NCBI GenBank assembly: GCA_902520495.1
Contig: CABYNW010000003.1
Location: 1 to 64,000, forward strand
Length of the DNA stretch: 64,000 nucleotides
From: an uncultured SAR86 cluster bacterium
Lineage (GTDB): Bacteria > Pseudomonadota > Gammaproteobacteria > Magnimaribacterales > D2472
Reading direction: 5' to 3'
In this document: one piece after another, positions 7,821 to 35,228 of the stretch
How positions within the stretch are numbered: position 1 is the stretch's first letter
Layout: each line of letters begins with the position of its first letter
Made by a program: the position numbers and the translations under genes
The notes under the pieces: model-generated
Seen by the model: only the letters and a program-made list of their open reading frames with translations
Database searches by the model: none
Told to the model about the DNA's origin: nothing

Positions 7821-9236
7821 ATGAAGAGTTTGGTTTGGTTTAGAAATGATCTGCGCGTGGATGACAATCCAGCATTAAGGGCTGCTTGTTCAAAATCAGA
7901 AGAGGTCCATGGAATTTATATATACTCAGAGAAGCAATTGAAATTTCATAACGAAGCTAATTGTAAGGTTGAATTTATTATTCAAAATCTAAAAAGCTTA
8001 GAACGAACACTAAACAAGTTAAACATTCCTCTAACAGTAATTAGCTCAGATGGATTCACCGAGGATGCTGAAAAAATTCTTAATCTAATCAATGAAAGAT
8101 CAATTAAAGAAATACATTGGAATAATCAATTTGGAACAGATGAAGAATCCAGAGATATAGAAGTTGAAAATATCTTAATAAATAACAATATAAATTTTTT
8201 TTCATATGATGCTCAAATACTTTTTCCTGCAGGGACATTTAAAACAGGAGAAGGCAAACCTTACTCAGTTTTTACACCTTTTAAAAAAAGATGGATAGAT
8301 AACTTTAATATTGATCTTTTAGATATTGAATATAACTACACACCCAAAGAAAAAACAAAAATATCCTCAAATATCAATGATTTTAAATTCCGTTTTGCAA
8401 AAGATCATTCAGTTGATATGTCTTTATGGCCAGTTGGTGAAGAAGAGGCTTTAAAAAGATTAGATAATTATTTAGATAAAAAAATATTTTATTATTCAAA
8501 GGATAGAAACGAACCAATTATCGATGGCACAAGTAGATTGTCAGCTTATTTAGCTTTAGGAATTATTTCTCCAAAAAGATGTATTTTAGAAGCATTAAAA
8601 AAGAATAATTTTGAATTAGATTCTGGTGAACAAGGAGTAACTAAATGGATTGATGAGCTTGTTTGGAGAGAATTCTATAAAAATATAATGTTTTCTTTCC
8701 CGAGAGTTAGCAAAGGTAGACCATTTCAAGAGTATACAAATAAAATTAAGTGGCGCTTTGATGAAGGTGAATTTAAAGCATGGAAAAGTGGTAATACTGG
8801 GTTTCCTTTAATAGATGCTGCTATGAGGCAGTTAAAAAATGAAGGCTGGATGCACAACAGATTAAGAATGGTTGTTGCAATGTTCTTTACTAAAAACATG
8901 CTTCATGACTGGCGTCTAGGAGAAGCATTCTTCATGCAAAATCTTATTGACGGAGATTTTTCTTCTAATAATGGTGGATGGCAGTGGAGTAGTTCAACTG
9001 GGACAGACGCAGCGCCATATTTCAGAATTTTTAATCCTCTTACTCAATCAAAGAATTTTGATGCTGATGGTTTATTTATAAAAAAATATGTAGATGAGTT
9101 AAAAAATATAGATAAAAAAGATATTCATGACCCATCAAATGAAATAAGATCTAATTGCAAATATCCAGCTAAAATATTAGATTTAAAAGAATCAAGATTG
9201 AGAGCAATCGATGCTTTTAATGAAGCTAAAAATTAG
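7821..9236 (+). CDS. phrB: Deoxyribodipyrimidine (CPD) photolyase
   Basis: A 471-residue class I photolyase, almost the same length as E. coli PhrB, that repairs cyclobutane pyrimidine dimers using blue light and FAD. The N-terminal Rossmann antenna domain begins LVWFRNDLRVDDNPAL. The C-terminal FAD domain has WIDELVWREFYKN, the MHNRLRMVVAMFFTK helix and the signature NNGGWQWSSSTGTDAAPY followed by FRIFNP, characteristic of DNA-repair photolyases rather than regulatory cryptochromes. The antenna chromophore cannot be decided from sequence. Photoreactivation fits a sunlit surface-water lifestyle. Confidence 0.95.
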   Translation: MKSLVWFRNDLRVDDNPALRAACSKSEEVHGIYIYSEKQLKFHNEANCKVEFIIQNLKSLERTLNKLNIPLTVISSDGFTEDAEKILNLINERSIKEIHWNNQFGTDEESRDIEVENILINNNINFFSYDAQILFPAGTFKTGEGKPYSVFTPFKKRWIDNFNIDLLDIEYNYTPKEKTKISSNINDFKFRFAKDHSVDMSLWPVGEEEALKRLDNYLDKKIFYYSKDRNEPIIDGTSRLSAYLALGIISPKRCILEALKKNNFELDSGEQGVTKWIDELVWREFYKNIMFSFPRVSKGRPFQEYTNKIKWRFDEGEFKAWKSGNTGFPLIDAAMRQLKNEGWMHNRLRMVVAMFFTKNMLHDWRLGEAFFMQNLIDGDFSSNNGGWQWSSSTGTDAAPYFRIFNPLTQSKNFDADGLFIKKYVDELKNIDKKDIHDPSNEIRSNCKYPAKILDLKESRLRAIDAFNEAKN

Positions 9237-9308
9237 TAAAATTTATCTAGTTTACCTATTATCACTTATGTATACTGAGATTTGATTTTAGGGGTATATG
9301 GAGGAAAC

Positions 9309-10988
9309 ATGGGAACATATCCAAGCGATCTAGAGATAGCAAATGCAGCACATAAAAAACCAATTGATGAAATTGCAGAATCAATTGGCATAGAAAAAAA
9401 AGACCTAATCAGATTTGGAGATGATAAAGCCAAGCTTTCTCATAAGCTTGTTAATTCATTATCAAAAAATGATGATGGAAAATTAATACTTGTTACTGCT
9501 ATTTCTCCTACTCCTGCTGGCGAGGGTAAAACAACCACTAGCGTTGGTTTAGTTGATGGATTATGCCATATTGGTAAAAAAGCAATGATATGTTTGAGAG
9601 AACCAAGCTTAGGTCCATGTTTTGGAATGAAAGGTGGTGCTGCAGGAGGTGGAAACGCACAAGTTATTCCAATGACAGATATCAATTTACATTTTACTGG
9701 TGACTTTCATGCAATCGGTGCTGCTCATAATTTACTATCAGCTCTCATAGATAATCATATTCATTGGGATAATGAGCTAAACATTGATCCGAGAAGAATA
9801 ACTTGGAAAAGAGTTGTCGATATGAATGATAGATCATTAAGAGATATTACTTGCGGTCTTGGTGGAACTGGAAATGGAATACCTCGTCAAAGTGGATATG
9901 ATATTACTGTTGCTTCAGAAATAATGGCTGTTTTTTGTTTAGCTTCTGATTTAGATGACCTCCAAATTAGAATTGGAAATATTGTAATAGGATATACAAA
10001 GACCAATGAACCCGTAAGGGCAAAACAATTAAATGCTGATGGTGCTATAACAGCTCTCTTGAAGGATGCATTTCAGCCCAACCTAGTTCAAACATTGGAA
10101 AATAATCCGGCATTCATGCATGGAGGTCCATTTGCAAATATAGCTCATGGATGTAATTCGGTAGTCTCAACAAAAACAGCATTAAAGTTAGCAGATTACG
10201 TAGTGACTGAAGCAGGATTTGGGGCTGATCTTGGTGCTGAAAAATTCTTTGATATTAAATGTAGGAAATCAGGACTCAAGCCAGATGTTGTAGTTTTGGT
10301 TGCCACAACTAAGGCATTAAAAATGCACGGGGGTGTTAAAAAAGATGAGCTTAGCTTAGAAAATGTTAATGCAGTTTTAAAAGGTTGTGAGAACTTAGGA
10401 AAACATATAGAAAATATTGGTAAATTTGGTATTCCCGTCGTTGTTGGAATTAATGATTATGTAACAGATACTGAAAATGAGCACGAGCAAATAATTAATT
10501 TTTGTAAAAATTTAGGCGTTCTTTGTAAAATTTCATCTCACTGGGAGAAAGGTGGAGAGGGGGCTGCAGACTTAGCAGAAGAGGTTGCAAAAATAGCTGA
10601 CTCAAATTCAGCTGAATTTAAAACCTTATACGATGATGAAATGACCTTATGGGATAAGACAGAGCACATCGCCAAAAATATTTATGGAGCTTCTGAAATT
10701 ATTGCTGATAAAAAAGTTCGAAATCAGTTCAAAAAACTTGAGGATGATGGCTTTGGAGAGTATCCAATTTGTATGGCAAAAACTCAATACAGTTTCTCTA
10801 CAGACCCTTTATTAATGGGTGCTCCTGTTGGACATGATGTTCCAATTAAAGAGGTTCGACTTTCAGCTGGTGCTGAATTTATTGTAGTTGTTTGTGGAGA
10901 TATTATGACTATGCCAGGATTGCCAAGAGTTCCAGCTGCTGAAGCTATTGGTCTAGACGAAGAAAAAGAAATAAAAGGATTATTCTAA
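9309..10988 (+). CDS. fhs: Formate--tetrahydrofolate ligase
   Basis: A 559-residue cytoplasmic enzyme that makes 10-formyl-THF from formate, THF and ATP. The P-loop-like TPAGEGKTT is at about 68-76, followed by [19 protein letters not shown] (potassium/formate site region), [17 protein letters not shown] and the TGLGxGIPR-like [13 protein letters not shown] frame-open extension to 9282 exists, but the ATG at 9309 has a strong GGAGGA five bases upstream and gives the family's usual length, so I chose it. It supplies one-carbon units for purine synthesis and may accept formate released by demethylation reactions; a DmdA-like gene lies 25 kb away. Confidence 0.96.
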
Positions 10989-12480: not shown

Positions 12481-13286
12481 TCTAAAAGCTCAGGCTGCAT
12501 TTTTATAATTTTATCAAATGCAGGCTGATAGCTTGCCCATGCAGCAATATCGTTGGCAATAAACTCTCTTGTTTTAATTGCAGTCTCATGTGGAATAATT
12601 TTTGGTTGACCTGCAGCTTCTGCCATGAGTTGTGCCTGACAACATCTTTCCATCGACATATAAAACCATAAAGCGATATCAACTGAGGGACCTGTTGTTA
12701 AAATTCCATGATTTTGTAGTATTGCAACTTTCTTATCACCTAAAGCCTTGGCAATTTCATCTCCTTCATCAACCTCCTCAACAACACCAGAGAAATCTTC
12801 ATAAATGCCTTGATTTTCATAAAAAGCACACGCATCTTGAGAAATTGGATCTAATAATTTTCCAAGAGTAGAAAATGTTCTTCCATAAATTGAATGAGAA
12901 TGAGCTGCAGCATTAACATCTGGCCTAGCTTTATGAAGTCTTGAATGTATTGCAAATGCAGCAATATTTACATCTTTATCTCCTTGAACCACTTTTCCAT
13001 CATGATTAACTAACAATAGATCTGATACAGAAATTTGAGAAAAGTGAACACCTAAGGGATTTACCCAAAAATGGTCCTTAAATTCAGGATCTCTATAGGT
13101 AATATGACCAGCAACTCCCTCATTAAATCCAAAGTAGTCAAATAGTCTAAAACCAGCAGCTAATTTTTCTAATTGATTTCGTCTTTCCTCAGCTGGGTTT
13201 GCAAATTCCTGAAAAACAAGTCCCTTTTCTTTAATAGGTAATTTACCATTGGTAATATCAATTTTTATTGGCGCAACATTTGACAT
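12477..13286 (-). CDS. Class II aldolase/adducin-family protein
   Basis: A 269-residue protein of the class II (zinc) aldolase/adducin head family, related to L-fuculose-phosphate aldolase. The zinc ligands are visible as AAHSHSIYGR and, later, LQNHGIL; the acidic residue in VVEEVDEGDE may be catalytic. The N-terminal part resembles members with unassigned substrates. The reading frame is open to 13331, but ATG 13286 has an AGGAG ten bases upstream and is the more natural start. It is divergent from fumC and convergent with the aldehyde dehydrogenase. Confidence 0.85.
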   Translation of the reverse strand: MSNVAPIKIDITNGKLPIKEKGLVFQEFANPAEERRNQLEKLAAGFRLFDYFGFNEGVAGHITYRDPEFKDHFWVNPLGVHFSQISVSDLLLVNHDGKVVQGDKDVNIAAFAIHSRLHKARPDVNAAAHSHSIYGRTFSTLGKLLDPISQDACAFYENQGIYEDFSGVVEEVDEGDEIAKALGDKKVAILQNHGILTTGPSVDIALWFYMSMERCCQAQLMAEAAGQPKIIPHETAIKTREFIANDIAAWASYQPAFDKIIKMQPELLD

Positions 13287-13345
13287 AGTTTTTATACTCC
13301 TAAGCTCAATAATGTTAAAATAGCTTATCAAATTAAGGACTAAAT

Positions 13346-14737
13346 ATGAAATTTAGAATTGAAAAAGACAGTATTGGTGAAGTTAAAGTGCCTGCAAAAG
13401 CATTATGGGGGGCTCAAACGCAACGAGCAGTAAATAATTTCCCTATAAGCGGCATAAAGATGGATTTTCCTTTTACTAAATCATTTGTATCTTCGTTAGG
13501 CCTTATTAAAGATGCTGCAGCTAAAGCTAATTTAAGACTAAAATTAATTTCTTCAAAAAAATCTAAAGCAATTTCGAAGGCCTCCAAAGAAATTTGGCAA
13601 GAAAAACATCATCATGAATTCCCTATTGATGTATTTCAAACCGGATCGGGAACAAGTTCAAACATGAATGCTAATGAGGTTATAGCTAACATAGCAGCTA
13701 AGTACGCAAAAGTTGAAATTAGCCCAAATGATGATGTAAATATGAGTCAAAGCAGCAATGATGTTATACCCACTGCAATTAAAATTAGCGCTCATATAGA
13801 TTTAACTAAAAAGCTTTTTCCGGCATTAGATGATTTAATTAAATCAATTGATGGTAAGGCTGAATCTTTTAAAGGAACCATTAAGACTGGTAGAACCCAT
13901 TTAATGGATGCGATGCCTATCGATTTTTCAGAGGAATTAAAAGCATGGTCTAGTCAATTAAAATCTTCAAAAGAGATGTTAAACATTTTAGAAAAGAAAC
14001 TTCTTGAACTTCCTCAGGGCGGAACTGCTGTTGGAAGTGGTATCAATGCTCATAAACAATTTTCAAAATATTTTGCTCAAGAAATGACAAAGTTGTTGGG
14101 TAACAACTCAAAATGTTCACCAGCTAAAAATTTTTATCATGAACTTAGTGCTCAAGATTGCTCGGTTCAATTATCAGGAGAATTAAAAAATCTAGCTATT
14201 ATATTAATGAAAGTTTCAAATGATCTCAGATGGATGAATAGTGGACCACTAGCTGGAGTATCTGATATTGAACTAAAAGCTTTACAACCTGGAAGCAGTA
14301 TTATGCCTGGTAAAGTAAATCCAGTGATTCCTGAAGCAGTTGCTATGACCTCAGCAGATGTTATTGGAAATGATGTAACAATAACTATTGCAGCTCAATC
14401 TGGAAGTTTTCAATTAAATGTTATGTTACCTGTAATAGCTTACAACCTTTTAAAAAGCATTAATCTTTTAAGTGGCTCTATGAATGCATTATCGAAGAAG
14501 GCTGTAAAGACATTTAAAGTTAATCATAAAAATTTAGAACTTTCATTATCCAAAAATCCAATATTAGTAACTGCATTAAATCCAATTATTGGATACGAAA
14601 AAGCAGCAGCAATTGCAAAAAAAGCATATAAAGAAAATAGGCCAATAATTGAGGTCGCAGCAGAAGAAACAGATCTAACAAAAGCAAAACTTAAAAAATT
14701 ACTTGATCCATCAAAGCTTGCTAAGGGCGGTATATAA
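13346..14737 (+). CDS. fumC: Class II fumarate hydratase
   Basis: A 463-residue iron-independent fumarase of the TCA cycle (fumarate to malate). Seen directly are TGSGTSSNMNANEV, TGRTH with the catalytic His185, QGGTAVGSGINAH and the superfamily signature GSSIMPGKVNP (316-326) with Ser318 on the mobile loop. Length matches E. coli FumC (467). Aspartase and argininosuccinate lyase share the signature, but the rest of the pattern is fumarase. The next gene (phhB) starts 2 bases after its stop. Confidence 0.95.
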   Translation: MKFRIEKDSIGEVKVPAKALWGAQTQRAVNNFPISGIKMDFPFTKSFVSSLGLIKDAAAKANLRLKLISSKKSKAISKASKEIWQEKHHHEFPIDVFQTGSGTSSNMNANEVIANIAAKYAKVEISPNDDVNMSQSSNDVIPTAIKISAHIDLTKKLFPALDDLIKSIDGKAESFKGTIKTGRTHLMDAMPIDFSEELKAWSSQLKSSKEMLNILEKKLLELPQGGTAVGSGINAHKQFSKYFAQEMTKLLGNNSKCSPAKNFYHELSAQDCSVQLSGELKNLAIILMKVSNDLRWMNSGPLAGVSDIELKALQPGSSIMPGKVNPVIPEAVAMTSADVIGNDVTITIAAQSGSFQLNVMLPVIAYNLLKSINLLSGSMNALSKKAVKTFKVNHKNLELSLSKNPILVTALNPIIGYEKAAAIAKKAYKENRPIIEVAAEETDLTKAKLKKLLDPSKLAKGGI

Positions 14738-14739
14738 AA

Positions 14740-15090
14740 TTGTCAAACGAACTTTCTCAAAGCAGCTGTGAGGCTTGCCGAGTAGATGCTCCTATGCTAA
14801 CTGATCAAGAAATCAAAGAGCTTGCTCCTCTGATACCTTCATGGATAGTGCATGAAGAGGAGGATATCAAAAGACTAATATGTTCTTTTGCTTTCTCTAG
14901 TTATGAGGATTCTGTTAGCTTTACAAATAAAGTAGCTCAACTAGCTGAAGAAGAGGATCACCATCCTGAGATTATCCTAGAATGGGGTAATGTAACTGTT
15001 TCTTGGTGGTCGCATAAAATAAAAGGCCTTCATAAAAATGATTTCATCTGTGCATCCAAAACAGATAATCTTTTTAAAGAATCAAAATAA
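14740..15090 (+). CDS. phhB: Pterin-4a-carbinolamine dehydratase
   Basis: A 116-residue enzyme that dehydrates 4a-hydroxytetrahydrobiopterin, recycling the cofactor of aromatic amino acid hydroxylases; it may also be a cofactor or folate accessory where no hydroxylase exists. The N-terminal CEACRVDAP and the core EEDHHPEIILEWGNVTVSWW, then SHKIKGLHKND, match Pseudomonas PhhB-type proteins, with both active-site His in DHHP. TTG at 14740 is the start that fits the family N-terminus. No phenylalanine hydroxylase gene lies in the window. Confidence 0.92.
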   Translation: MSNELSQSSCEACRVDAPMLTDQEIKELAPLIPSWIVHEEEDIKRLICSFAFSSYEDSVSFTNKVAQLAEEEDHHPEIILEWGNVTVSWWSHKIKGLHKNDFICASKTDNLFKESK

Positions 15091-15105
15091 ATAATAATTT
15101 AAAAA

Positions 15106-15333
15106 ATGAATCAAAATGAAAAGCCATATCAATTCCTAGCTTGGGCTGCAACAGCAATATTAATTCTTGCTGCTATCTTGGCTAGTTTTGTACCGGCTTT
15201 AGAATATCACCACTGGGCATTTATCATAGCCAATTCTTTATGGGTTATTGTTGGATTCTTGTGGAAAGAAACGACTCTAGTAGTTTTAAATGCCGGCCTA
15301 ACAATAATATATATCCTAGGCTTGATTTTATAA
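15106..15333 (+). CDS. Small membrane protein of unknown function
   Basis: A 75-residue protein with three closely packed hydrophobic segments (about 12-30, 36-53 and 56-75), short loops and a cytoplasmic-looking polar start (MNQNEKPYQ). No family is recognised. It follows phhB by 15 bases and its last codons overlap the convergent NCS2 permease gene by 6 bases. Its placement suggests co-transcription with fumC and phhB. Confidence 0.6.
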   Translation: MNQNEKPYQFLAWAATAILILAAILASFVPALEYHHWAFIIANSLWVIVGFLWKETTLVVLNAGLTIIYILGLIL

Positions 15334-16626
15334 AAATATAAATTTTGAAATAAAAATTATAGTTAAAAACCATGCAGCTGATGTTATGTTTTTTATTTCA
15401 CCGTTTGTAATTTTTAAAACTACATAGGATAAAAAGCCAAGACCAATTCCATCAGCAATTGAAAATGTTAAAGGTATCATTATCAAAATCACCAATGCAG
15501 GTAAAAGTTCAGTCGCATGAGACCAGTTAAGTTTTTCCATTCCGCCAAGCATTAAGATAGCTACATATACTAAAGCACCTGCAGTAGCATATGCTGGAAT
15601 AATAGAAGCTAATGGCGATAAAAACATTGCCAAAACAAATAAGAATCCTACAATCACAGCTGTGAGACCAGTTCTACCTCCAGCTTCAACACCTGCAGAA
15701 CTTTCAACATAACTTGTTACTGGAGAACATCCAAAAAATGTACCAAATATACTAGCTCCGCTATCTGCCTTAAGGGCCTTATCAAGATTTTCAGCCTCAC
15801 CATTTTCATCTAATAAATTAGCTCTTGTAGCTACGCCAACTAAAGTTCCTGTTGTATCAAATAAGTTAACAAATAGAAAAGACATAATTACTGTCAGCAT
15901 ACTTAGATTCAAAGCTCCAAGAATATCTAATTTCATAAAAGTTGGTGCGATATCAGGTGGAGATGAAATTATTCCATTAAATTGAATAAGATCAGCAAAA
16001 ATTGAAACAACAGTTATTATCAATATTCCTATAATAATAGCGCCTGGTATTTTCCTAATAGATAACGCTGAGATAATAAGAAAGCCGATTGCAGCAAGAA
16101 GTGTTTCAATTTTTGTAAAATCACCTAGTGCTAATAGCGTTGCATCATTAGTGATTATTATGCCGCCACTTTTAAGTCCAATTATTCCAATAAATAGCCC
16201 AACTCCAGCTCCCATCGCAATTCTCAGATTCATTGGTATGCTTGCAATCATCCAACTCCTTAGGTTTGTTACACTCATAACAAAAAATAAAATACCGGCT
16301 ATGAAAACTGCTCCTAGCGCAACCTCCCATGCATAACCCATTTCTCCGACCACTGTATATGTAAAAAAAGCATTTAAACCCATTCCAGGAGCCAGACCAA
16401 TTGGCCAATTAGCAAAAATTCCCATTACAAAACAAGCAATAGCAGCTGCTAGACAAGTCCCAACAAAAATAGCACCTTTATCCATTCCACTTGCTTCCAT
16501 TATTTGAGGATTGACAAAAATAATATATGCCATTGTCAAAAAGGTTGTAAAACCAGCAATAATTTCAGACTTAATATCAGTGTTGTTAAGATCTAGTTTA
16601 AAGAAATCGTTAAGAAAATTTTTCAT
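15328..16626 (-). CDS. NCS2-family purine permease (AzgA/GhxP type)
   Basis: A 432-residue inner-membrane transporter with about 12-14 hydrophobic segments. The family motifs NPQIMEASGMDKGAIFVGTC (near the N-terminus), GLAPGMGLNAFFTY and, in the re-entrant region, SPVTSYVESSAGVEAGGRTG place it in the AzgA-like branch of NCS2, whose members import guanine, hypoxanthine or adenine with protons. The purine role fits the nearby phosphoribosyltransferase, guaB, guaA and apt genes. It is transcribed away from the TonB receptor across a 159-base gap. Confidence 0.92.
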   Translation of the reverse strand: MKNFLNDFFKLDLNNTDIKSEIIAGFTTFLTMAYIIFVNPQIMEASGMDKGAIFVGTCLAAAIACFVMGIFANWPIGLAPGMGLNAFFTYTVVGEMGYAWEVALGAVFIAGILFFVMSVTNLRSWMIASIPMNLRIAMGAGVGLFIGIIGLKSGGIIITNDATLLALGDFTKIETLLAAIGFLIISALSIRKIPGAIIIGILIITVVSIFADLIQFNGIISSPPDIAPTFMKLDILGALNLSMLTVIMSFLFVNLFDTTGTLVGVATRANLLDENGEAENLDKALKADSGASIFGTFFGCSPVTSYVESSAGVEAGGRTGLTAVIVGFLFVLAMFLSPLASIIPAYATAGALVYVAILMLGGMEKLNWSHATELLPALVILIMIPLTFSIADGIGLGFLSYVVLKITNGEIKNITSAAWFLTIIFISKFIFL

Positions 16627-16667
16627 GCAAATAAGTATATTCTATCTAGTACAGATGTTAATGAAAG

Positions 16668-16680
16668 TGTTAATATAACA
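16668..16680. promoter_or_regulatory. Small palindrome upstream of the sigma-54-like promoter
   Basis: TGTTA-ATA-TAACA is a perfect 5-bp inverted repeat inside a larger pair TAATG (16659-16663) and CATTA (16679-16683). It sits about 50-60 bases upstream of the -24 element, a place where an activator could bind. AT-rich sequence makes chance palindromes common, so support is weak. Confidence 0.25.
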
Positions 16681-16725
16681 TTAGAATTTTTATTACTTGC
16701 AAAAACTTAAATTTATATATTTATT

Positions 16726-16741
16726 TGGCACTGAAGTTGCA
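16726..16741 (+). promoter_or_regulatory. Sigma-54 (RpoN) -24/-12 promoter
   Basis: TGGCAC-TGAAG-TTGCA matches the RpoN consensus (TGGCAC, five bases, TTGCA/T) at all 11 specified positions, with correct spacing between the GG and GC elements. Transcription would begin near 16752, about 34 bases before the ATG of the TonB receptor. It is in the right orientation and in the only sizeable gap of this region. Confidence 0.65.
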
Positions 16742-16785
16742 TATATTTATATAAATAATACATCTATAAAGAGGATACATTTATT

Positions 16786-19110
16786 ATGAAATTTACTATG
16801 TTATTAAGGGCATCGTTTGCTTCCATTCTATTATTTTCTATTACAAATAACATTTCAGCTCAAGAAGGAGAATTGGTATTTGAGGAAGTTATTGTTACTG
16901 CTGAAAAAAGAGATGAAAGCCTTCAGACTGTTTCACAAGCTGTTACTGCTATTACTGATTCAGAGATTGAAGCAAAAAATATTAATTCTTTTGTTGATTT
17001 ATCAAGCATTGTACCTGGTGTAACAGTTGCTAAAAACGAAGGATATAAAACAGTTATTTCTATCAGAGGTGTTGGTAATGAGACAAACCAAAATGCTATT
17101 GCAGCACCTTCTGTTGCATATCATATGGATGGCATCTTTATTGCCTCTCCGTTTTCATTGCAAACAGACTTTTTAGATGTTCAAAGAATTGAAGTATTAA
17201 GAGGTCCTCAAGGAACTCTCTTTGGTCAAAACTCAACTGGTGGAGCTATCAATGTTATTAGCAACAAGCCCTCTATGGATGAAAGTTTTTCCAAAGCAGA
17301 TGTTACTGTTGGTAATTATGGTTTACAAAAAGTTCGTGCAATAACAAATATTCCATTATCAGATAATGTTTCTACAAAATTTTCTTTTGTTATGACTGAA
17401 AGAGATGGTTTTTCAAAAAATATTTTCACAGGACAAGATTTGGATGATGCGTCAAACATTAGCATTAGAAGTGACTGGATGATTGAGCTAAATGATACAT
17501 CTTCATTGAGAATATTTGGGCAGTATTTTGATGTAGATAGAAACGGCGCAGCTATAAGAGGAATAGATGATCAGTCACCAGGAATGCGAAAATTGTCTCA
17601 AAATACAATTTCTAATCAAGAGCTTACTTCTTCTGTGATTGCAATGATTTTTGAATCAGATTTAGGATTTGCAAATCTAAAAATTTTAGCAAGCTCACAA
17701 GATGATGATATGTCAGTAACTAGAGATAATGACCGTCATAATTTTGGAGATCTCGTATTATCTATTCCAGGTTTAGGGTCAGGTTCTACTTATCAGCAGG
17801 CAGAATTCCGTCCTGAGACCTCAGTTGTTGAAACGAAAACTTTTGAAATTAACCTTATTTCAAATGAACCCTTGATGGATGGGAAGCTCGACTGGACTGT
17901 GGGAGCCTTTTATATGGAACATGAAATAGAAAATGTGATAAGAGGTTACAGAGATGATGATCTTGACGGAGTATTTAAATATGTCTGTGATGCATCTTTT
18001 GCTGATCCGAATTATTGTTATCAGCATGATTATGGTATACCAGGCAGATTTGATATTTTTGGTCCAGGTGCTGATGTTGACTTTTTTACAGATGCTTTTC
18101 CATATAGAGAATCTTTTTCAGTTTATGCTCAAACTACCTATAGTTTTAGTGATACTTTTAGGCTTGTTACTGGATTAAGATACTCCGAAGATACTTTTGG
18201 AACAGATGTTACAAACTTTCTAAATACTGAAAGCTTTCAAGCAGAAGGTACGACAGATGAAACTACCACAAGAATCACTGGTGAGTATGACTTAGCTGAA
18301 GCAACAATGGTTTATTTAACATTTGCTAGTGGGTTTAAACCTGGCGGAAGTAACTTAACCTTTGGTTTTGACAATGATAATGCTCCCCCAATGGTTTTTC
18401 CTACGTTTGAAGCAGAAACTGTTGATTCCGTTGAATTTGGATTAAAAACTGATTTACTTGATGGAAGAGCAAGAGCAAATATTGCTGCTTTTTCATATGA
18501 TTATGAGAACTTACAATTTCAAGCTACTGATCCAGACCCCTATAGAGGAGGCGTAGCAAATATACCTGATTCAGAAATGTCTGGTATTGAAATAGAATTT
18601 ACTGGATTAGTAACTGATTCATTTACGGTTGATATGAATTTCTCTTTCCTTGATTCAGAAGTTACATCAGATTATGACGTACTTGATAATGTTGATGCTT
18701 ATCAGTATTTCTTTGGTCAAGAAGATTTAAGATATGGACTTAGAGAAAATGTTAAAGGTAATAAACTTGCAAAGACTCCTGAATTTACAGCTGATGTAAA
18801 TTTCACATATGAAACAGATTTATCATCTGGAAACTTGCTAACGGCTGTTGTGCAATATGTTAAAAGGGGAGAACTTGAACAACGTGTTTCAAATAATCCT
18901 ATTGTAGATTCAATAGGGGCATATGCAGTTGTAAACCTTACCCTGGGAATTGATTTTACAAATGATATGGGATTAGACTTTATGATTCTTAATGCAACTG
19001 ATAAGGATGGCGTAAATTCGAGTATGACAGATGTCTTTGGTGTAGCTGCTACAGGCCTTGAGCTAATACCACCAAGACAATTTATGACAAGAATTAGTTA
19101 TAACTTCTGA
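16786..19110 (+). CDS. TonB-dependent outer-membrane receptor
   Basis: A 774-residue outer-membrane transporter. It has a signal peptide (about 1-25, ending ISA), a TonB box-like EEVIVTAEKR just after it, a plug domain with VYHMDGI-like AYHMDGIFIAS and LRGPQGTLFGQNSTGGAINV, and a 22-strand-type barrel ending in Phe (RISYNF), the usual insertion signal. Substrate is unknown; plugs of this type occur in many carbohydrate, siderophore and hydrophobic-compound receptors. Upstream lies a sigma-54-like promoter, suggesting control by an enhancer-binding protein and perhaps nutrient status. A GAGG at 16771-16774 is rather far from the ATG. Confidence 0.93.
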   Translation: MKFTMLLRASFASILLFSITNNISAQEGELVFEEVIVTAEKRDESLQTVSQAVTAITDSEIEAKNINSFVDLSSIVPGVTVAKNEGYKTVISIRGVGNETNQNAIAAPSVAYHMDGIFIASPFSLQTDFLDVQRIEVLRGPQGTLFGQNSTGGAINVISNKPSMDESFSKADVTVGNYGLQKVRAITNIPLSDNVSTKFSFVMTERDGFSKNIFTGQDLDDASNISIRSDWMIELNDTSSLRIFGQYFDVDRNGAAIRGIDDQSPGMRKLSQNTISNQELTSSVIAMIFESDLGFANLKILASSQDDDMSVTRDNDRHNFGDLVLSIPGLGSGSTYQQAEFRPETSVVETKTFEINLISNEPLMDGKLDWTVGAFYMEHEIENVIRGYRDDDLDGVFKYVCDASFADPNYCYQHDYGIPGRFDIFGPGADVDFFTDAFPYRESFSVYAQTTYSFSDTFRLVTGLRYSEDTFGTDVTNFLNTESFQAEGTTDETTTRITGEYDLAEATMVYLTFASGFKPGGSNLTFGFDNDNAPPMVFPTFEAETVDSVEFGLKTDLLDGRARANIAAFSYDYENLQFQATDPDPYRGGVANIPDSEMSGIEIEFTGLVTDSFTVDMNFSFLDSEVTSDYDVLDNVDAYQYFFGQEDLRYGLRENVKGNKLAKTPEFTADVNFTYETDLSSGNLLTAVVQYVKRGELEQRVSNNPIVDSIGAYAVVNLTLGIDFTNDMGLDFMILNATDKDGVNSSMTDVFGVAATGLELIPPRQFMTRISYNF

Positions 19111-32066: not shown

Positions 32067-32456
32067 TTAGAGATCACCTTTTTTTCTAAGGTCAGCTCTT
32101 ATTTTTGTTGCACTTATAGAGGTAATTTCTTCATCAAATATCTCTTCTTCAAAAACATAACCCACACCTCTGCCATAAGAAATGTTTGTAATATTTGGTA
32201 CTAGCATTATTTCGTAATCTAACCCTCTTTCAAAACCGTCTAATTTTAGATTGGTTTCAATATCGATACAAACATCCTCCCAAGAAAATGGATTATCATC
32301 CTGTCCTTCACCACCGGACGAGCCTTCTACATCTCTAACTTGAATTATTACCTGACCAGTTTTCACAACACATCTTTTAAATAGCTCCTGATGTCCTTTA
32401 TGCCAAGGCTGCCATCTTCCTAGCATCTGAACAGTAGGCTTCTTCCAATCAAACAT
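32067..32456 (-). CDS. Nucleotidylyltransferase (cytidylyl/adenylyltransferase fold)
   Basis: A 129-residue HxGH-superfamily enzyme: QMLGRWQPWHKGHQELFKR carries the HKGH motif near residue 19, and SISATKIR is the second signature, ISxTxxR. The protein is short, like FMN/NMN or glycerol-3-phosphate transferase cores. It would transfer NMP to a phosphorylated substrate, releasing pyrophosphate; the substrate is unknown. It overlaps the kinase gene upstream by 8 bases and is last in a three-gene coupled operon. NMN adenylyltransferase (NadM/NadR-like) is the alternative. Confidence 0.8.
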   Translation of the reverse strand: MFDWKKPTVQMLGRWQPWHKGHQELFKRCVVKTGQVIIQVRDVEGSSGGEGQDDNPFSWEDVCIDIETNLKLDGFERGLDYEIMLVPNITNISYGRGVGYVFEEEIFDEEITSISATKIRADLRKKGDL

Positions 32457-32859
32457 TTTGTAAAATCTCTTTTGCTAATATTTTGTGATTTTCGTCATTC
32501 ATTTCTGTAATTCTATAGTCCGCATCTATAGGCTCCTCAAACATTTTATTAGTATCTTCATACCTTCCTGATTTAATTGTATTCATCCATACGGTAATAT
32601 CAGGATCAAAGTTTTTCTTAGTCTCTTTTGTAGGGCAAACAAAATCGCAAATAACAATTCTTCCATGTTTTTTTTCAAAATCAGCAAGGTTTTTCATTCT
32701 TAAACTTTGCCTAATTCTTCCCTGTGGTGAAAAATCCCAGTCGTTAGCCATTTCTCTTACAATATCTGCGTTATACCACGCAGCATTAAGAAGGGGCTGC
32801 ATTCTTTTTGCTAGATACGTCTTACCACTTCCAGGAAGACCCATTATTAATATTTTCAT
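32449..32859 (-). CDS. P-loop kinase resembling APS kinase
   Basis: A 136-residue kinase with the Walker A GLPGSGKT at about 7-14 and an APS-kinase-like order of motifs: WYNADIVREMANDWDFS, then RIRQSLRMKNLADF, IVICDFVCPTKETKKNF and VWMNTI. It is shorter than CysC (about 200) and lacks the C-terminal lid, so sulfate activation is doubtful; phosphorylation of another nucleotide-like or small alcohol substrate is more likely. The start codon shares its A with the upstream methyltransferase stop (TAATG), and its own end overlaps the nucleotidylyltransferase. Confidence 0.75.
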   Translation of the reverse strand: MKILIMGLPGSGKTYLAKRMQPLLNAAWYNADIVREMANDWDFSPQGRIRQSLRMKNLADFEKKHGRIVICDFVCPTKETKKNFDPDITVWMNTIKSGRYEDTNKMFEEPIDADYRITEMNDENHKILAKEILQNV

Positions 32860-33962
32860 TATCTTGTTTTCTTAATACTAAAAATTTCGTTTTTAAATTG
32901 AATTTCACCAACATTATCAATAGTTTTTTTAACCTTATTATGAAGTCTGGTATTTTTTTCAAGAGCTTGGATATCTCTATCTGGGATTTGTCCTACATAA
33001 ACAATGTTGGCCCATTTGGCATCAGTATTATGTCCGAATAATTCTGTAACAGTTTGATCAGGTGCCTTCTTAAAATTAAAAAAATAACTCAATGGCTTCG
33101 CATATGTATATTTATTGTTATCGCCTACTGGATTATTTTTTAAGTAATCAATGATATCTTTTGCAGTATTGGGAAAAGCTTCCTTATCTTTAAATGCCAT
33201 TTTAAGAATTTTCTGAATAGATTCACCTCCAGATGAATGCGTAATAAGAAGTTTTCCAGATTTATTTAGTAATCGCATTAAAGGACCTATTACATTTTTA
33301 ACCTTAACACTAACTGAAGACGCTGCTCTGTATGCTTGTGATGCAATAATAAGGTCATAATTGTTGTTTTTATAATCATTTTTTACAAACTGCTCAAAAT
33401 GTTTTTCATGATCTCCTCTATAAACCCTAATTATGCAGGGGTTTGAATAGGATGTTCTACTTTTGCTATCTATCTCTATGCCCCAATTTTTCTTAATAAA
33501 ATTTCCAAGCGCATTACCAGTAATTTGTGAATGAAAGTCAAATGAATTATCGCTCTTGAGAATTAAATTAAACTCTTTAACTTTTTTATTTTTTATTTTT
33601 TTTGAGGTCTCGATTACTCCTAATTCTGCAAATTTAACATTTGTCATGGTTACCATTAGATTAGGGTGCTCAACAAACCTGTCAGGCATTTTTTCTAAAG
33701 TATTTTTTAAGTCTTCGTAGCTTATTTCTTTTCCAGTTATAAGAAGCGATGTATATGGATGATATCGATGAAAACTTTTAATAACATTCGATTTTATTGT
33801 TCCATCTCCTGTTCCTGCATCAAGTATTCTTAGATAAGATTTATTTTGAGAAAGACCAGCAATATAAGGATAAAGCTTTTGTGAAATAGCTTTCTTCTCG
33901 CTAGTATTTTGAATGAAAGATAGATATTTTAACCTGTCATCAAAGAATCTTTTTTTCCCCAT
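32859..33962 (-). CDS. Class I SAM-dependent methyltransferase-like protein of unknown function
   Basis: A 367-residue protein. The SAM-binding motif I is RILDAGTGDGT at about 45-55; NYDLIIASQAYRAA (about 205) occupies the motif IV position and GKLLITHSSGG (about 240) the post-strand 5 region. Residues 60-200 hold an unusual insertion, and the C-terminal 100 residues match no domain I know. It is first in the minus-strand trio with the kinase and nucleotidylyltransferase. GGGGC lies just upstream of its ATG. It is divergent from the DmdA-like gene. A methyltransferase on a nucleotide-activated small molecule is my guess only. Confidence 0.65.
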   Translation of the reverse strand: MGKKRFFDDRLKYLSFIQNTSEKKAISQKLYPYIAGLSQNKSYLRILDAGTGDGTIKSNVIKSFHRYHPYTSLLITGKEISYEDLKNTLEKMPDRFVEHPNLMVTMTNVKFAELGVIETSKKIKNKKVKEFNLILKSDNSFDFHSQITGNALGNFIKKNWGIEIDSKSRTSYSNPCIIRVYRGDHEKHFEQFVKNDYKNNNYDLIIASQAYRAASSVSVKVKNVIGPLMRLLNKSGKLLITHSSGGESIQKILKMAFKDKEAFPNTAKDIIDYLKNNPVGDNNKYTYAKPLSYFFNFKKAPDQTVTELFGHNTDAKWANIVYVGQIPDRDIQALEKNTRLHNKVKKTIDNVGEIQFKNEIFSIKKTR

Positions 33963-34073: not shown

Positions 34074-35228
34074 ATGTCTGAATCAAAACTGCCTTTGATG
34101 ATTGGTATTGGTACGCGTATTAGAAAATCTCCTTACTATGAATCAGATTTGAAGTATGGTGTAACTGGTTTTACGGTTTATAACAAAATGTATTTACCAA
34201 CTGGTTTTTCAAGTCCAGAAAAAGAATATGAAAGTTTAATAAATGATGTAACTTTCGGTGATTTTGCTGCTGAAAGACAAATAGAGATTAATGGCCCTGA
34301 TGCTCATAAATTTGTTTGTTATGTGCAACCAAGAAATTTAGAAAAATGCGCAATAGGAGCATGTAAATATATTTTATTGACTGATATAAATGGCGGAATA
34401 GTAAATGACGCATGCTTATTAAGATTAGAAGAAAACAAATTCTGGATTTCACCTGGAGATGGCGATGTAATTTTATGGTTACAGGGCATCGCAATAAATT
34501 CCGGTATGGATGTGTCTATTCATGAACCTGATGTGTCTCCACTGCAAATCAGTGGACCTAAGTCAGGCAAGCTTATCCAAAAACTTTTTGATGGCGAGCA
34601 TGATGATTTAGGTTATTACAAAGCTAAACAAACATCCTTAAATGGTATTCCAATGGTAATAGCTAGAACTGGTTGGAGCGGTGAATTAAGTTATGAATTA
34701 TATTTACAAGATAGAAAGTTAGGGAACCAGCTTTTTGAATTAGTGAATGATGCAGCAGAAGAATTTAATGGAAGGGTAATAGCGCCAAATATAATAAGAA
34801 CCATCGAGGGTGGATTATTATCTTATGGTGGTGATTTTGGAAGAGAGCATAATCCTTATACGATCGGATTAGGCAGACTTGTTGATCTTGATCAGGAAGT
34901 TGACTTTATTGGCAAGAAAGCTCTTAAAGGTATTAAAGAAAAAGGACTAACAGAAAAGTTAGTAGGAATTGAGTTAGAAGGGGATCCGATTATAAAGGCT
35001 CCAGAAAATTTTTGGGAAGTTAATAATTTAGATAACAAAAAAATTGGTCGAGTTTCAAGAGCATTCTATTCACCTAGGCTTAAAAAGAATATTGGATTAG
35101 CGATTGTTGATATTAATTATGCTGATGAAGGAAAGAAATTTTCTGTTGCAACACCAAATGGAGATCTACAATCAGTGGTTGTTTCTATGCCGTGGTTTGA
35201 GGCTGATATAGACACCCATTTAGATTAA
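34074..35228 (+). CDS. GcvT-fold aminomethyltransferase, DmdA-like
   Basis: A 384-residue THF-dependent enzyme of the GcvT/DmdA family. The N-terminal TRIRKSPYYESDLKYGVTGF, FTVYNKMYLPTGF, ERQIEINGPDAHKFV and ENKFWISPGDGDVI segments follow the layout I recall for DMSP demethylase DmdA (SAR11), and LLSYGGDF...NPYTIGLGRLV also corresponds. It could demethylate DMSP to methylmercaptopropionate with transfer to THF, or act on another methylated compound such as a betaine. Several DmdA-like groups lack DMSP activity, so no symbol is given. Strong ribosome binding site TAAGGAGA. The CIA30 and tadA genes follow within 3 bases each. Confidence 0.78.
   Translation: MSESKLPLMIGIGTRIRKSPYYESDLKYGVTGFTVYNKMYLPTGFSSPEKEYESLINDVTFGDFAAERQIEINGPDAHKFVCYVQPRNLEKCAIGACKYILLTDINGGIVNDACLLRLEENKFWISPGDGDVILWLQGIAINSGMDVSIHEPDVSPLQISGPKSGKLIQKLFDGEHDDLGYYKAKQTSLNGIPMVIARTGWSGELSYELYLQDRKLGNQLFELVNDAAEEFNGRVIAPNIIRTIEGGLLSYGGDFGREHNPYTIGLGRLVDLDQEVDFIGKKALKGIKEKGLTEKLVGIELEGDPIIKAPENFWEVNNLDNKKIGRVSRAFYSPRLKKNIGLAIVDINYADEGKKFSVATPNGDLQSVVVSMPWFEADIDTHLD

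Follow-up and report, generated by a model that had tools for sequence, protein, structure and literature searches.

The question raised by this locus is what three tightly packed genes of a SAR86 bacterium, a member of one of the most abundant bacterial groups in the ocean, serve to make, and whether all three belong to the same pathway. The window, by which is meant the whole stretch of 64,000 nucleotides that was analysed, comes from a genome of 1.09 Mb in 36 contigs, approximately 858 kb of which was read, in stretches. Within the genome collection, the named entries closest to it are single-cell genomes and MAGs of SAR86. The three ORFs lie on the minus strand: a methyltransferase of 367 amino acids (32859-33962), which is the upstream neighbour of an APS-kinase-like P-loop enzyme of 136 amino acids (32449-32859, below called the kinase), and a nucleotidyltransferase of 129 amino acids (32067-32456, NT). 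A sequence-only reading of this DNA had described overlaps of 1 and 8 bases between them, and both junctions are indeed seen. The methyltransferase and kinase genes join at TAATG, with 1 base in common, while the kinase stop and the NT start share the 8 bases ATGTTTGA (32449-32456, minus strand). The latter overlap recurs at the same offset in 62 of the 80 cellular loci and in 25 of the 80 viral ones and is, therefore, not considered a product of chance. Translational coupling of kinase and NT via these 8 bases is probable. No noteworthy promoter, terminator, repeat or RNA-family signal was found at the locus.

The same reading had proposed that the three enzymes could act on one small molecule, which would be phosphorylated, nucleotidylated and methylated. 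Such a pathway would agree with the single-base overlap between the methyltransferase and kinase genes and with their adjacency in 26 of the 29 genomes in which the methyltransferase occurs (G008 has a contig break at that point). However, these 29 are all members of one family, f1, among the 60 SAR86-order genomes compared, and the methyltransferase is missing from the other families, from G035 and from every viral locus with a kinase-NT pair. In two of the 29, G030 and G013, it has stayed beside a GCV_T-like gene while an apparently foreign kinase-NT pair is located elsewhere, either within a polysaccharide cluster or close to a gene with a PAPS-reductase domain. Because of this distribution and detachment, the pair rather than the trio is taken as the functional unit, and a three-enzyme pathway acting on one molecule is regarded as most improbable. 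The methyltransferase is probably a local, SAR86-family-specific neighbour whose link to the conserved unit is incidental. The expectation that the three genes would stay together in other genomes thus holds for kinase and NT but not for the methyltransferase. As noted before, the latter protein carries a clear SAM motif (ILDAGTGDG) and is otherwise unfamiliar, no family in Pfam, NCBIfam or PHROG being matched over its cut-off. The structure prediction proposed for it gave fold matches to class I SAM methyltransferases, albeit from a model of low confidence (pLDDT only 59). On its other side, the methyltransferase gene adjoins a gene for a GCV_T-domain protein (window 34074-35228) that resembles DmdA-type aminomethyltransferases.

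Kinase and NT are present in the identical 39 of the 60 SAR86-order genomes, and they were found together in 155 of 160 other loci, 80 cellular and 80 viral, from genome and viral collections. NT relatives are encoded in at least 592 viral stretches. The two genes are fused into one ORF in Stenotrophomonas phages and also in G430, a genome from the same phylum and another class (L246:8352-9170; 52.5 bits to PF01583). That products of this locus act together, as had been suggested, is supported for kinase and NT by their shared distribution and by these fusions; the confinement of the methyltransferase to one family speaks against its inclusion. In one genome, G036, kinase and NT are located on different contigs, and some viral loci have an additional ORF between the two. 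One phage protein of PHROG 10255, a family annotated just as "kinase", matches both genes over their full length, whereas in the window the two are separate and overlapping. In a tree of kinase and NT, the cellular clade is nested among viral copies, with mixed node support, and the pairs of G030 and G013 fall apart from the methyltransferase-linked f1 copies. This suggests horizontal transfer of the pair, those of G030 and G013 being apparently foreign. Two observations on gene neighbourhoods may be added here. The G430 fusion overlaps a gene for an AMP-binding enzyme and is located near a cluster for a 4-HFC-P synthase (MfnB-type) and an aldehyde dehydrogenase, and viral copies (L156, L167 and similar loci) often reside among genes for KDO synthesis, UDP-glucose dehydrogenase, epimerase and carbamoyltransferase-like proteins.

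The APS-kinase character of the kinase is confirmed by a score of 30.2 bits against the Pfam family APS_kinase (PF01583, cut-off 21.1) and by a profile of 36 kinase sequences, the best solved matches of which are APS kinases (2yvu, E 1e-11). It was also rightly called short for such an enzyme: the alignment ends after the first 91 of the 152 model positions, at the N-terminal side, the usual C-terminal/lid stretch being missing. The protein fails the full-length NCBIfam test for apsK (21.7 bits, cut-off 138.7), and its closest NCBIfam subfamily is PRK05541, with 34 bits as opposed to some 22 bits for apsK. NCBIfam APS-kinase models are matched by 35 of the 36 kinase relatives, every match being weak. 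Among the SAR86-order genomes, those without the kinase have zero PF01583 matches, and 38 of the 39 with a match have just one; the exception, G007, contains a second match, barely over the cut-off, in an ORF of 230 amino acids. The kinase is the sole convincing APS kinase of the SAR86-order genomes that carry it.

The HKGH and ISATKIR motifs attributed earlier to NT are present, the former as part of GRWQPWHKGH. An alignment of 49 diverse relatives revealed that GRWQPWH.GH, VRxV, DNPF, VPN, YGRGVGY and ISATxIR are invariant, as are H19 and H22 of the HxxH nucleotide-binding motif, which is common to the whole superfamily. No Pfam or NCBIfam family is matched over its cut-off. The AlphaFold2 model of NT (pLDDT 88) has its best solved matches among NMN adenylyltransferases of the HxGH superfamily (TM approximately 0.5), and its NCBIfam matches are NMN adenylyltransferases as well, below cut-off (26.1 versus 181.2 bits for the archaeal family TIGR01527 and 28 versus 127 for PRK01153). 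These matches could fit a NadR-like NAD salvage route in which the kinase would convert nicotinamide riboside into NMN and NT would adenylylate the latter. The assignment of NT as an NMN adenylyltransferase was at first a serious one because NadD (TIGR00482) is missing from SAR86 families f1 and f4. Both families, the genome of the window included, carry a CinA-NMNAT fusion, however. In the genome of the window it is encoded at C2, approximately 105.9-107.0 kb (L353:5870-6976), with PF01467 matched over its cut-off. Fusions of this kind were also seen elsewhere, at L250:3651-4757, L251:2290-3402 and L252:2459-3580. The combination of a CinA/PncC-like with an NMNAT-like part makes the protein a candidate deamidase-adenylyltransferase for NAD synthesis, and its motifs indicate that it may act as an NMNAT. 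Moreover, complete f4 genomes without NT exist, family f2 has NadD and NT together, the kinase is APS-kinase-like, and neither kinase nor NT tracks any NAD gene. NAD salvage by the pair is, on these grounds, very unlikely. The sequence-only reading had named in advance, as an outcome that would count against it, that NT might turn out to be the NMN adenylyltransferase of the cell; this role of NT is rejected on account of the fusion in the same genome, which is a separate NMNAT candidate, together with the distribution of NT. NT does share the fold and the GRxQPxHxGH, NPF and ISxTxIR motifs with archaeal NMN adenylyltransferase, NadM and NadR. It differs from these enzymes in lacking the rest of the domain, in having invariant VRxV and YGRGVGY motifs not shared with them, in scoring far below the family cut-offs and in the presence of another NMNAT in the genome.

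A different role for the pair is indicated by the company that it keeps. PAPS is the universal activated form of sulfate, its synthesis requires an ATP sulfurylase and an APS kinase, and sulfotransferases require PAPS, all of which is established biochemistry. Sulfotransferases were counted by PF13469 or PF00685. Of the 41 other genomes with a completeness of at least 80 %, 26 had both kinase and sulfotransferase, 15 had neither, and none had one alone. Over all 59 other genomes, both were present in 38 and neither in 16; none had only the kinase, and five, which are 60-77 % complete, had a sulfotransferase without the pair. The Fisher value over the 59 genomes is 2e-10, relatedness being ignored, and as the co-occurrence for the most part follows family lines, the number of independent events is small. 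The clearest of these is seen in G050, a member of family f4, in which the pair is clustered with a PF00685 sulfotransferase and a phosphatase of PF00459 (CysQ-type family), while its f4 relatives have neither pair nor sulfotransferase. The pair comes immediately after a PF13469 sulfotransferase in most genomes of f2; the kinase contig and the NT contig of G036 each have their own sulfotransferase nearby; and in one viral lineage (L159, L361-L363), a Sulfotransfer_2 gene overlaps the NT stop codon. The genome of the window encodes at least three sulfotransferases, those matching PF13469 including two TPR-sulfotransferases. Each of the latter follows a TonB-dependent-receptor-like gene (L318: 5772-8042 with 8102-9688 and 13247-15688 with 16579-18531), which suggests a pairing of receptors and sulfotransferases in SAR86, the receptor N-termini having been read by eye.

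The obvious gap in the route to their donor is the ATP sulfurylase. To our knowledge, only two kinds of ATP sulfurylase have been established, Sat/MET3 and CysDN. Of the 60 genomes, 59 lack the classical enzyme Sat (PF01747). The only one to have it is G036, in an ORF of 717 amino acids (L069:3451-5604) with an N-terminus that reads like pyruvate kinase. CysDN was judged from a search for CysN, which is not found over the cut-off in any of the 60 genomes, EF-Tu-like proteins scoring below it everywhere. The two grounds on which ATP sulfurylase activity is assigned to NT are this gap in the pathway and the linkage of an HxGH nucleotidyltransferase to an APS kinase. The earlier statement that no ATP sulfurylase is nearby is probably wrong in substance, NT being the best candidate for that activity. 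Against this, NT does not pass as an ATP sulfurylase by family score, and it retains GRxQPxH, a motif of the NMN adenylyltransferases. The NT of the window does not match PF01747 at E 1. Weak matches were obtained for 11 of the 49 relatives (best E 0.0063), reaching at most 15.5 bits among the matches listed, with a cut-off of 24.3. As 2 of 10 NadM control proteins also match, with up to 13.3 bits, this link was discounted as evidence.

Taken with the family assignments, the co-occurrence, the neighbourhoods and the absence of alternatives, from which we infer the substrate of each enzyme, the pair is proposed to be a minimal PAPS synthase with an ATP sulfurylase of a new type, a reading to which a probability of roughly three in four is given. 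Nucleotidylation would come before phosphorylation. NT, whose family is neither that of Sat/MET3 nor that of CysDN, would transfer AMP from ATP to sulfate, yielding APS and PPi; the kinase would then phosphorylate APS at its 3'-OH, and the resulting PAPS would be used by the sulfotransferases of the cell. Coupled translation, or fusion in the phages, could allow the second step to draw the unfavourable first one along, as happens in the animal PAPS synthases. The two predicted reactions are the same as those of the animal enzymes PAPSS1/2, which consist of an APS kinase and an ATP sulfurylase, and the fusions of the phages and G430 are likewise ordered kinase first, HxGH nucleotidyltransferase second. 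The histidines of the HxGH motif are essential in human PAPSS1 (PMC11697783). Unlike PAPSS1/2, which measure approximately 620 amino acids, the fused kinase-NT proteins have only about 240-270; moreover, NT falls outside PF01747, and the kinase is without the C-terminal third of its model. The 129-amino-acid NT is likely to represent a third, non-orthologous family of ATP sulfurylases. Combined with its partner, the truncated APS kinase, it would make up the smallest PAPS synthase known, one that has spread between bacteria and viruses of the ocean and provides the sulfotransferases of SAR86 with PAPS. A literature search that lay mostly outside subscription journals found no paper on SAR86 sulfotransferases, nor one that speaks of a novel, alternative or missing ATP sulfurylase.

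The main weakness of the PAPS synthase proposal lies with the viruses, as motif and phmmer scans recognised a sulfotransferase within approximately 8 kb in only 2 of the 80 viral loci. The annotation of phage Bhz60 lists none within the first 50 of its 56.6 kb, and no sulfotransferase was recognised in the 18 kb surrounding the G430 fusion. When viruses were searched in the reverse direction, starting with sulfotransferases, the pair turned up only alongside the close relatives of L159 and L193, the seven remote relatives having no pair in the flanks examined. The viral copies may serve remoter sulfotransferases, enzymes of the host, or another activated group. The main rival proposal is that the pair makes such a group, 3'-phosphorylated and nucleotide-activated, for cell-surface glycans, comparable to the O-methyl phosphoramidate of Campylobacter. 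It holds this position because the Campylobacter pathway shows an APS-kinase relative acting on a substrate other than APS: Cj1415-Cj1418 make CDP-phosphoramidate 3'-phosphate, and in C. jejuni Cj1415/Cj1416, as in SAR86, an APS-kinase-like kinase is combined with a nucleotidyltransferase, there acting on a phosphoramidate in place of sulfate and giving a 3'-phosphonucleotide donor (PMC11800397). The KDO, epimerase, UDP-glucose dehydrogenase and carbamoyltransferase genes around viral and some cellular copies would suit this proposal, as would the methyltransferase that adjoins the pair in family f1. The kinase, moreover, is nearer to PRK05541 than to apsK, and Cj1415-type proteins are presumably of the PRK05541 kind. 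Cj1416, in turn, is taken to belong to a nucleotidyltransferase family other than that of NT. In contrast to the C. jejuni system, the SAR86 pair is linked to sulfotransferases, and an unsystematic look at the neighbourhood revealed neither a glutamine-kinase nor an amide-hydrolase partner. The pair tracks the sulfotransferases genome by genome, and these enzymes would have no donor if it made something else. A phosphoramidate-type product is, on balance, unlikely.

Synthesis of PAPS by the pair is a directly testable prediction that concerns two very small proteins. If true, it would explain how the sulfotransferases of SAR86 can run without any recognised gene for sulfate activation. It would, furthermore, add sulfate activation to genomes that are now annotated as lacking such genes and provide a function for a gene pair that occurs in at least 592 viral stretches.
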